64,000 nt of DNA. Origin: Paenibacillaceae bacterium (GTDB lineage: Bacteria > Bacillota > Bacilli > Paenibacillales > CANHGK01). The notes below the pieces were generated by a model, which made no database searches, was not told where the DNA came from, and saw only the letters and a list, made by a program, of their open reading frames with translations. The first letter of the stretch is position 1, and each line of letters opens with the position of its first letter. The DNA lies in NCBI GenBank assembly GCA_947460235.1, contig CANHGK010000002.1:62001-126000 (forward strand), written 5' to 3'. This document shows, piece after piece, positions 32,509 through 35,087 of this stretch. The translations under genes were made by a program, and so were the position numbers.

Positions 32509-32781
32509 TTATGAAGGTTGACCGGAACGGGATGAATTGAACGCTTCGATCAATTCTTCAACACATGAGCGGCTAACCATTTTTCCTTTGAAATAAATTA
32601 GTTCGTCTGCATTACCTGTGAAGATACAAGCAGGTTCGTATTTTTTAAGCATAATTTTTTCGCCGTCAACGTAAATTTCCAATGCGTCTTTTTCTCCGAT
32701 ACCGAGTGTGCGGCGCAATTCGATTGGAATTACAACGCGACCTAACTCATCGACTTTACGGACAATACCTGTGGATTTCAT
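32509..32781 (-). CDS. abrB: transition-state regulator AbrB
   Basis: 90-residue DNA-binding repressor of post-exponential genes. The N-terminal swapped-hairpin domain shows MKSTGIVRKVDELGRVVIP and RRTLGI, close to B. subtilis AbrB, and the C-terminal multimerisation region has CIFTGNADELI. The start is fixed by GAAAGGA just upstream (complement 32792-32798); an upstream in-frame TTG is not supported. It lies between rsmI and the next operon as in B. subtilis and is the only minus-strand gene here. Control by Spo0A is covered by the separate promoter entry. Confidence 0.95.
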   Translation of the reverse strand: MKSTGIVRKVDELGRVVIPIELRRTLGIGEKDALEIYVDGEKIMLKKYEPACIFTGNADELIYFKGKMVSRSCVEELIEAFNSSRSGQPS

Positions 32782-32813: not shown

Positions 32814-32873
32814 GTCGTCAATATTCGACAAATGCTATGTTGAAATTGTACCATTCACTCCCAGTTTAGTCAA
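32814..32873 (-). promoter_or_regulatory. abrB promoter with tandem Spo0A boxes
   Basis: On the minus strand, TTGACT (complement of 32868-32873) and TACAAT (complement of 32845-32850) have a 17-base spacer. Downstream of the expected start, a perfect Spo0A box TGTCGAA (complement 32824-32830) is followed 10 bases on by TGACGAC (complement 32814-32820). The same paired arrangement represses abrB in B. subtilis, so Spo0A repression is likely conserved. Confidence 0.85.
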
Positions 32874-32879
32874 CAGTTA

Positions 32880-32965
32880 TTGACTTGTGGTCAGCAAGAA
32901 TGTTATCAAATCAATGGTTTTAAGATGGACATCCATTGGTAATTATAGTTCGACAATTTTCGACA
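32880..32965 (+). promoter_or_regulatory. HD-gene promoter region with two perfect Spo0A boxes
   Basis: TTCGACA occurs at 32949-32955 and again at 32959-32965, both exact inverses of the box TGTCGAA and one helical turn apart. A possible promoter lies upstream: TTGACT (32880-32885), 18-base spacer, TATCAA (32904-32909). Boxes downstream of the start would predict repression, as at abrB. The boxes are firm; the promoter is weaker. Confidence 0.65.
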
Positions 32966-32991
32966 AAATAATTAAAAAGGAGCGTGTGCTC

Positions 32992-34296
32992 GTGTATAGA
33001 TTAGTGAAATTAAAAGAGGAAAAAGTATTTAAAGATCCGATACACGGATATATTCATATCAATGATCAATTAATTTGGGATTTGATTAATACACCAGAGT
33101 TTCAGCGCTTACGTCGAATTCGACAGTTGGGAATGACATACTTTACATTTCATGGCGCGGAGCATAGCAGATTCAATCATTCACTTGGAGTGTATGAGTT
33201 AATGCGACGCGTACTTTCACATTTTCGCCGCAATTATGCACTCGAGCTGCAAGATGACGAGGTCGCATTAGGTCTGTGTGCAGCGCTTTTGCATGATGTA
33301 GGACATGCGCCTTTTTCACATTCGATGGAACATGCACTGCATATGAAACATGAAATATGGTCTCGCAAAATAATAGAGAGTAGCAATGGAATTTCGACAA
33401 TTTTAAACGCCTTTAAGCCTGGTTTTGCGAAAGAAGTTTCTAGTGTCATCGCCAATGAACATCCGAATAAATTAATTGAATCACTTATTTCCAGCCAATT
33501 GGACGTGGATCGCATGGACTATTTATTGCGAGATGCATATTATACCGGCGTGAACTATGGAAACTTTGATTTGGAGCGCGTATTGCGGATTATGCGTCCT
33601 CATCCGAAGTTGGAATCGATCAAAAATGATCCAAATACGCCAAAGGTCGTATTAAAATTTTCGGGTTGGCATGCGGTCGAAGATTTTATTGTTTCTCGGT
33701 ACCAGATGTTTTGGCAAATTTATTTTCACCCGGTGACAAGAAGCGCGGAAGTGCTGCTCGGTAAAATTTTTAAACGAGCACAAGATTTAGCGAGAAGTAA
33801 CTATACATTTTCATTTATGCTTGAACCATTAGATGATTTAATCATGAATAACGTAATTACAGTTGAGCAATATTTAAGAATGGACGAGTCGTTCATGCAA
33901 ACTGTTTTTTATCAGTGGATGGATGAAAAGGATGTTGTGTTAAGCGATTTGTGCAGACGATTAATCAATCGCGATTTGTTCAAATATCAGGTGTTACCTG
34001 CCGACGAAAAAGAAAGTAAACGTATTTGTATTGAAATGGAGCAATTGCTTAGACAAAAAGGCTTCGATCCTGAATATTATATGGAAACGGACTATCCAAA
34101 AGATACCGCTTATCATGTATACGAGGTGAATGGCCCGCTAATAAAAACTCCAATTGCTGCAATTGATAATCAAGACCATTTAATTGAAATTTCGAACCTG
34201 TCGGTTATTGTAAAGTCTTTAGGTGAAAAGAAAAGCGTTGGAGCAACGAATTTATATGTTCCGGAATTAAAAAATAACGAGGTATATGAGAGATGA
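32992..34296 (+). CDS. HD-domain phosphohydrolase (YwfO / dNTPase-like)
   Basis: 434-residue HD-superfamily metal-dependent phosphohydrolase. The metal ligands include H58 and H63 in HSRFNHSLGVYE, then H101-D102 and H105 in LLHDVGHAPFSHS; a later SQLDVDRMDYLLRDA supplies the final Asp. The closest family I recognise is YwfO, related to deoxynucleotide triphosphohydrolases; substrate is not certain. GTG 32992 follows AAGGAG (32977-32982) at 9 bases. It occupies the place of metS between abrB and tatD and overlaps tatD by 4 bases. Two perfect Spo0A boxes lie just upstream. Confidence 0.85.
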   Translation: MYRLVKLKEEKVFKDPIHGYIHINDQLIWDLINTPEFQRLRRIRQLGMTYFTFHGAEHSRFNHSLGVYELMRRVLSHFRRNYALELQDDEVALGLCAALLHDVGHAPFSHSMEHALHMKHEIWSRKIIESSNGISTILNAFKPGFAKEVSSVIANEHPNKLIESLISSQLDVDRMDYLLRDAYYTGVNYGNFDLERVLRIMRPHPKLESIKNDPNTPKVVLKFSGWHAVEDFIVSRYQMFWQIYFHPVTRSAEVLLGKIFKRAQDLARSNYTFSFMLEPLDDLIMNNVITVEQYLRMDESFMQTVFYQWMDEKDVVLSDLCRRLINRDLFKYQVLPADEKESKRICIEMEQLLRQKGFDPEYYMETDYPKDTAYHVYEVNGPLIKTPIAAIDNQDHLIEISNLSVIVKSLGEKKSVGATNLYVPELKNNEVYER

Positions 34297-35087
34297 GTTC
34301 ATTCATTGACACACACACGCATATTAACGATAAAGCATTCGAGGAAGACTTTCATTTGGTACTTAACCGAGCGCGCGAAGCAGGGCTAGAAAAAATCATA
34401 AATGTAGGCTTTAATCGTGAAACGATTCCACAAACGATGGCGCTCGTCGATCGAGAATCGGATATTTACGGCGCTGTCGGTTGGCATCCGCAAGATGCGA
34501 TTGATTATCGTCCAGAAGATGGCGACTGGTTGATTTCATTGGCGAAACACCCTAAAGTAGTAGCGATCGGAGAGATCGGTTTAGACTATTATTGGGATAC
34601 GTCACCAAAAGATGTACAACATCGAGTGTTCAGAGAGCAAATTCAATTAGCCAAAACGGTAAATCTGCCGATTTCAATTCATAATCGCGATGCACATGCT
34701 GATGTTGTGCGCTTGCTTCAGGAAGAAGGCGCCAAAGATGTTGGCGGAGTTATGCACTGTTTCTCCGGCAGTTGGGAAATTGCAAAGATGTGCCTGGACA
34801 TGAATTTTTATATTTCGTTTGGTGGACCTGTCACATTTAAAAATGCGAAACAACCGAAAGAAGTGGCGAGACAAGTTCCGATTGATCGATTACTAATCGA
34901 AACAGACGCACCTTACTTAACTCCACACCCGTATCGAGGCAAACGCAATGAGCCAGCATATGTGAGTCTCGTTGCTCAATCGATCGCAGAAATTTTAGAG
35001 ATTTCAATCGAAGAAGTCGCGCAAATTACGACAGAAAACGCATATCGATTATTCCCTAAATTAAGGAATCATGGTTCACAGCTTTGA
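34293..35087 (+). CDS. TatD-family metal-dependent DNase (YabD)
   Basis: 264-residue TIM barrel hydrolase. Metal ligands appear in DTHTHIN (residues 6-12), EIGLDYYWD, ISIHNRDA, GVMHCFSG and LIETDAPYL. TatD enzymes show 3'-5' exonuclease activity in vitro. Position after abrB-metS and before yabE in B. subtilis matches. It is coupled to the HD gene by ATGA. Confidence 0.92.
   Translation: MSSFIDTHTHINDKAFEEDFHLVLNRAREAGLEKIINVGFNRETIPQTMALVDRESDIYGAVGWHPQDAIDYRPEDGDWLISLAKHPKVVAIGEIGLDYYWDTSPKDVQHRVFREQIQLAKTVNLPISIHNRDAHADVVRLLQEEGAKDVGGVMHCFSGSWEIAKMCLDMNFYISFGGPVTFKNAKQPKEVARQVPIDRLLIETDAPYLTPHPYRGKRNEPAYVSLVAQSIAEILEISIEEVAQITTENAYRLFPKLRNHGSQL

Follow-up and report, generated by a model that had tools for sequence, protein, structure and literature searches.

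Between abrB and a divergently transcribed gene for an HD-domain protein, the window (the whole stretch of DNA analysed here, 64,000 nucleotides from a Paenibacillaceae bacterium) holds a tandem pair of Spo0A boxes. We read this pair as the local form of an old Spo0A array facing abrB, to which Spo0A~P would bind, probably with repression of the HD gene and the following tatD as its most likely effect. Sequence evidence of four kinds makes the HD-side boxes very probably a Spo0A operator: they are conserved across the order, they are helically phased, the genome encodes spo0A, and the same motif occurs at abrB, at spo0A and at the spoIIG promoters of relatives. Since a strongly conserved box cluster lies between abrB and HD, the sporulation decision probably governs the HD gene. 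Among the papers searched, none linked Spo0A with the HD gene, and the searches turned up neither binding or expression data nor RNA-seq of Paenibacillus spo0A mutants.

The region contains the following features:

32512-32781, minus strand: abrB, transition-state regulator, divergent from HD
32814..32830, plus strand: abrB Spo0A pair GTCGTCA-N3-TTCGACA, downstream of the abrB promoter
32845..32873, minus strand: predicted abrB promoter TTGACT-17-TACAAT, its -10 preceded by TG; a conserved block in relatives
32880..32909, plus strand: alternative, weaker predicted HD promoter TTGACT-18-TATCAA, a consensus match only, about 40 bp upstream of the boxes
32920..32949, plus strand: predicted sigma-A promoter of HD, TTAAGA-18-TATAGT, a consensus match only; its -10 (32944-32949) shares its last base with the start of box 1
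32949..32955, plus strand: Spo0A box 1, exact TTCGACA, read directly; orthologous boxes in 63/66 regions
32959..32965, plus strand: Spo0A box 2, exact TTCGACA, starting 10 bp after the start of box 1
32974..32982, plus strand: HD ribosome-binding site AAAAAGGAG, read directly
32992..34296, plus strand: HD-domain protein of the EF1143/YwfO type, a probable dNTP triphosphohydrolase by similarity and metal ligands
34293..35087, plus strand: tatD, whose start overlaps the HD stop at ATGA (34293)

The gap between abrB and the HD gene

The consensus of the Spo0A box (0A box) is TTCGACA/TGTCGAA, and the HD side of the gap carries two exact copies in tandem, offset by 10 bp. An earlier sequence-only reading had placed them one helical turn apart and about 30-40 bases before an HD gene divergent from abrB; the coordinates are correct, the offset is as described, abrB lies on the minus strand, and the measured distances to the GTG at 32992 are 43 nt for box 1 and 33 nt for box 2. 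This GTG is the best choice of start because AAAAAGGAG ends at 32982 and orthologues align from there. A longer frame, opening at 32887 and running through the boxes, was set aside for lack of orthologue support. The exact arrangement TTCGACA-N3-TTCGACA occurs once in the window and twice in the 2.72 Mb genome. The second genomic copy lies within the coding sequence of recN and was rejected as a regulatory site; the backward control pattern has 0 occurrences in the genome.

On the abrB side, the sequence-only reading had described a matching pair of boxes at 32814 and 32824. The 10-base offset holds and the box at 32824 is exact; that at 32814 is degenerate (GTCGTCA, 5/7 matches), giving a pair with 2 mismatches. 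An abrB-side box is kept in nearly all relatives. The pair sits just downstream of the predicted abrB start, an arrangement that would suit repression, and boxes just downstream of the start are the known repression geometry at B. subtilis abrB. Upstream of spo0A (locus L223, genome G000, contig C26), three exact boxes (two TTCGACA and one TGTCGAA) and one near match suggest that the genome's spo0A may be autoregulated.

The HD protein resembles EF1143 over its full length, with residues 2-425 of 434 aligning (PDB 2o6i/3irh/4lrl; E=3e-107). The EF1143 metal ligands H66, H110, D111 and D183 (PMC8177086) have aligned counterparts in its H63, H101, D102 and the aspartate within LDVDRMDY. Against the Dgt dGTPase model TIGR01353 it scores 28.3 bits, below the NCBIfam cut-off of 152. 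The EF1143 match and the conserved ligands bear out the earlier assignment as a YwfO-like, probable deoxynucleotide hydrolase, and we consider the product likely to be a dNTPase of the EF1143/YwfO type. The tatD gene directly follows HD in 44/44 Paenibacillus loci, and the two are probably cotranscribed.

Conservation of the array in Paenibacillales

Conservation was assessed in 66 non-redundant abrB-HD gaps; the relatives used belong to Paenibacillales as far as named records show, and none comes from the window genome's own family. Exact boxes were counted in the 200 bp before HD, with 100 dinucleotide shuffles as the control. Loss of the boxes in close relatives would have spoken against the sequence-only reading; instead, exact HD-side boxes are found in 63 of the 66 gaps. 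They total 148, compared with a shuffle mean of 2.5 and a maximum of 7, and a 10-bp direct pair is present in 36/66 gaps and in none of the shuffles, these counts being slightly generous in that the 200-bp stretch reaches the abrB-side box in the shortest few gaps, including that of the window. Box density is 10.8/kb on the HD side of the gap, as opposed to 0.18/kb over the remainder of these loci, and at least one exact box occurs in 11 of the 12 families examined. The boxes are thus conserved upstream of orthologues in genomes that carry spo0A, which is encoded in the window's genome and in all 8 further genomes checked. Counting against the main reading, the array has been lost from three Paenibacillales genomes (G002, G007 and G028) that retain both HD and spo0A. 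Conserved as it is over an order of spore formers, the predicted Spo0A target carries far more weight than a motif match in a single genome.

Within the array, many relatives have a direct pair followed by 1-3 oppositely oriented boxes. Plus-to-minus box spacings cluster at 12, 22, 33 and 43 bp, each a full number of turns of the helix (R=0.82 at 10.5 bp). Because related sequences share spacings, the Rayleigh p is not to be taken literally, and the argument lies in the repeated one-turn steps across lineages. Two further sequence blocks accompany the array. A TTGGAA hexamer is conserved at a constant spacing, about 14 bp before box 1, in many Paenibacillales loci, and reads TTGGTA in the window (32935-32940). 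In a P. alginolyticus-like group (L006, L037-L055), a conserved dyad block, AACCaaGtagAATAAGG..tGTAA...TATATTAC, lies about 100 bp upstream of the boxes and is possibly another operator or promoter of HD.

Promoter geometry and the likely sign of the proposed control

In the proposed mechanism, Spo0A~P would bind the boxes, which all lie on the same side of the helix, and would in this way control the operon opposite abrB, which in Paenibacillales starts with HD, encoding the EF1143/YwfO-type dNTPase, and continues with tatD. The boxes straddle the predicted transcription start, and repression would be the most likely effect: a rise in Spo0A~P would turn abrB off on one side of the gap and HD-tatD off on the other, leading to less dNTP hydrolysis at sporulation entry.

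Repression is preferred on three grounds. The predicted HD promoter ends inside the boxes; TTAAGA-18-TATAGT is the only near-gene promoter in the HD direction that a simple scan of the window returned, and with it the boxes would span about -7 to +10. The stretch from box 2 to the ribosome-binding site AAAAAGGAG is just 8 nt long, too short to hold a -10 and a transcription start downstream of the boxes. Finally, the arrangement at spoIIG is absent at HD. The spoIIG promoters of relatives have tandem TTCGACA/TTAGACA sites in the coding direction and a TATACT -10 located 11 nt after the second site; HD resembles these Spo0A-activated Paenibacillales promoters in its tandem sites and their direction, whereas no such -10 follows its boxes.

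These same likenesses underlie the opposite reading, in which Spo0A~P activates HD-tatD, so that dNTPs are destroyed and new replication rounds are blocked at sporulation entry. It can draw on the TTCGACA copies in the coding direction, as in the Spo0A-dependent spoIIG promoters, on metS-type loci of other orders, where boxes lie upstream of a clear -35, and on one relative (L019) with TATACT exactly 11 nt after box 2. However, in the window and in many relatives the last box lies too close to the ribosome-binding site for a -10 and a start to fit in between, and no -10 peak appears at the spoIIG spacing; we therefore regard activation as unlikely.

Across the relatives, no sigma-A -10/-35 was found at a fixed place relative to the boxes. 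A -10-like hexamer ending on box 1 is mildly enriched (15% versus an average of 1.4%), an excess partly forced by the shared T. With no order-wide promoter element, the case for repression rests on the window's own geometry, and the sign may differ between genomes. In metS-type loci the boxes stand 20-110 bp before the -35, a placement unlike that of a simple repressor, and this counts against our main reading. For the window's own genome, the local geometry makes repression of HD-tatD by Spo0A~P the most likely effect, at somewhat better than even odds.

The operon opposite abrB and related systems

HD faces abrB in essentially all Paenibacillales examined. The statement in the sequence-only reading that HD has replaced metS here is correct as a description of gene order relative to metS-type Bacilli; as a local event it does not hold, the arrangement being order-wide in Paenibacillales. 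The four genomes of family f9 that lack HD retain the array, with tatD opposite abrB. In other orders, where metS faces abrB, boxes lie between the abrB promoter region and metS in 19 of 27 loci, 37 boxes in all versus 2.2 expected, a count that is slightly generous because a few of these loci (e.g. L184, L188) include another gene's coding sequence between abrB and metS. In 11 loci the T-box leader of metS could be placed, often with a clear -35/-10 just before it. Many Bacilli (e.g. L195, L199, L200, L204, L205, L213, L214) have a second group of Spo0A boxes, distal to abrB and in front of the T-box-metS promoter, and there metS may also be a Spo0A target. In genome G097, another gene lies between abrB and metS, and a box pair stands 26 bp before the metS -35.

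HD genes far from abrB lack the array, and those located elsewhere in mixed families have no exact boxes. Counting against the main reading, metS has no boxes in six other genomes in which it is separated from abrB. The Bacillaceae HD copies have no pairs, and single exact boxes occur in about 7/35 of them, mostly from related genomes. Spo0A control as an intrinsic property of ywfO/HD genes was accordingly rejected, HD genes far from abrB having no array. Since the array is kept with tatD or metS facing abrB and is absent from distant HD genes, it belongs to the promoter opposite abrB and not to HD. This bears on the direct tie between Spo0A and nucleotide pools that had been proposed earlier: as a dedicated link it has less support than the broader statement that Spo0A would control whatever operon faces abrB, an operon that in Paenibacillales starts with a dNTPase gene. 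At least two replacements of the facing gene (metS, HD, tatD) have left the Spo0A boxes of the promoter opposite abrB in place.

Gene order around abrB varies further. In L184 and L188 (family f18), HD lies between abrB and T-box-metS without a box array, possibly an intermediate between metS-type and HD-type loci. A quite different gene faces abrB in some families (L182-L186, L206, L210, L218); it encodes an EAL-domain-like protein in f29 and a 'MLPVSEELK' protein in f28 and f50.

The facing gene varies between HD, tatD and metS while abrB stays in place, and HD genes elsewhere have no array; both points would also fit an auxiliary abrB operator, with Spo0A~P helping to repress abrB by looping or oligomerization and the facing gene incidental. 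Yet the spacing between the abrB box and the array shows no phasing at 10.5 bp (R=0.13, p=0.33) and only weak phasing at 11 bp (p ~0.02-0.03), and with distances that are essentially unphased, looping from the abrB boxes to the array was rejected. Moreover, in the loci examined in which an unrelated gene faces abrB, there are abrB boxes only and no second array, and in L206 the boxes are at metS, away from abrB. We hold an auxiliary operator to be improbable, somewhat more so than activation. A role of the boxes for tatD or genes further along the operon, and not for HD, is equally improbable. The constant place of tatD behind HD in Paenibacillus and its position facing abrB, with the array kept, in the four HD-less genomes speak for it; HD nevertheless heads the operon, and its stop codon overlaps tatD, so HD would be affected too, and such a target would change the purpose of the control while leaving its mechanism the same. 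Chance occurrence of a short motif, although single TTCGACA copies are common (21 in the window versus 14.7 expected) and the genome's other exact pair lies in recN, is ruled out for practical purposes by the shuffles, the density control, conservation 60-fold over background, the pairs in 36/66 gaps versus 0 and the helical phasing.

The preferred reading thus remains an array, probably repressive, at the promoter facing abrB. Its wider form, in which Spo0A directly and conservedly controls a SAMHD1-like dNTPase across Paenibacillales and one divergent abrB/dNTPase switch region resets dNTP breakdown at the sporulation decision, is tentative, and we put it at somewhat below even. If it is true, control over the breakdown of DNA precursors would be a further link, besides SirA, Sda and the oriC boxes, between sporulation entry and DNA replication. 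Under repression, dNTP breakdown would fall as abrB goes off, and precursors might be spared to finish the chromosome; under activation, dNTPs would be drained and new rounds blocked.

Several known systems resemble parts of this arrangement. As with the Spo0A operator of Bacillus abrB, the HD-side pair consists of two boxes offset by 10 bp that lie at a (here predicted) transcription start or beyond it, with the same consensus and in the same intergenic region. Unlike that operator, the array lies on the opposite, HD side of the gap, its target would be HD-tatD, and in relatives it comprises 3-5 boxes in both orientations and in helical phase. Of the SAMHD1-like dNTPases EF1143 of Enterococcus faecalis and YwfO of B. 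subtilis, the HD protein aligns over its full length with EF1143 and shares its metal ligands, but the HD gene adjoins abrB and lies under Spo0A boxes. Similar to the Spo0A boxes at B. subtilis oriC and the control of replication by SirA and Sda (reviewed in PMC5295017), the array would tie Spo0A to replication control at sporulation; the oriC boxes, SirA and Sda act on initiation, whereas our reading of HD concerns dNTP pools.
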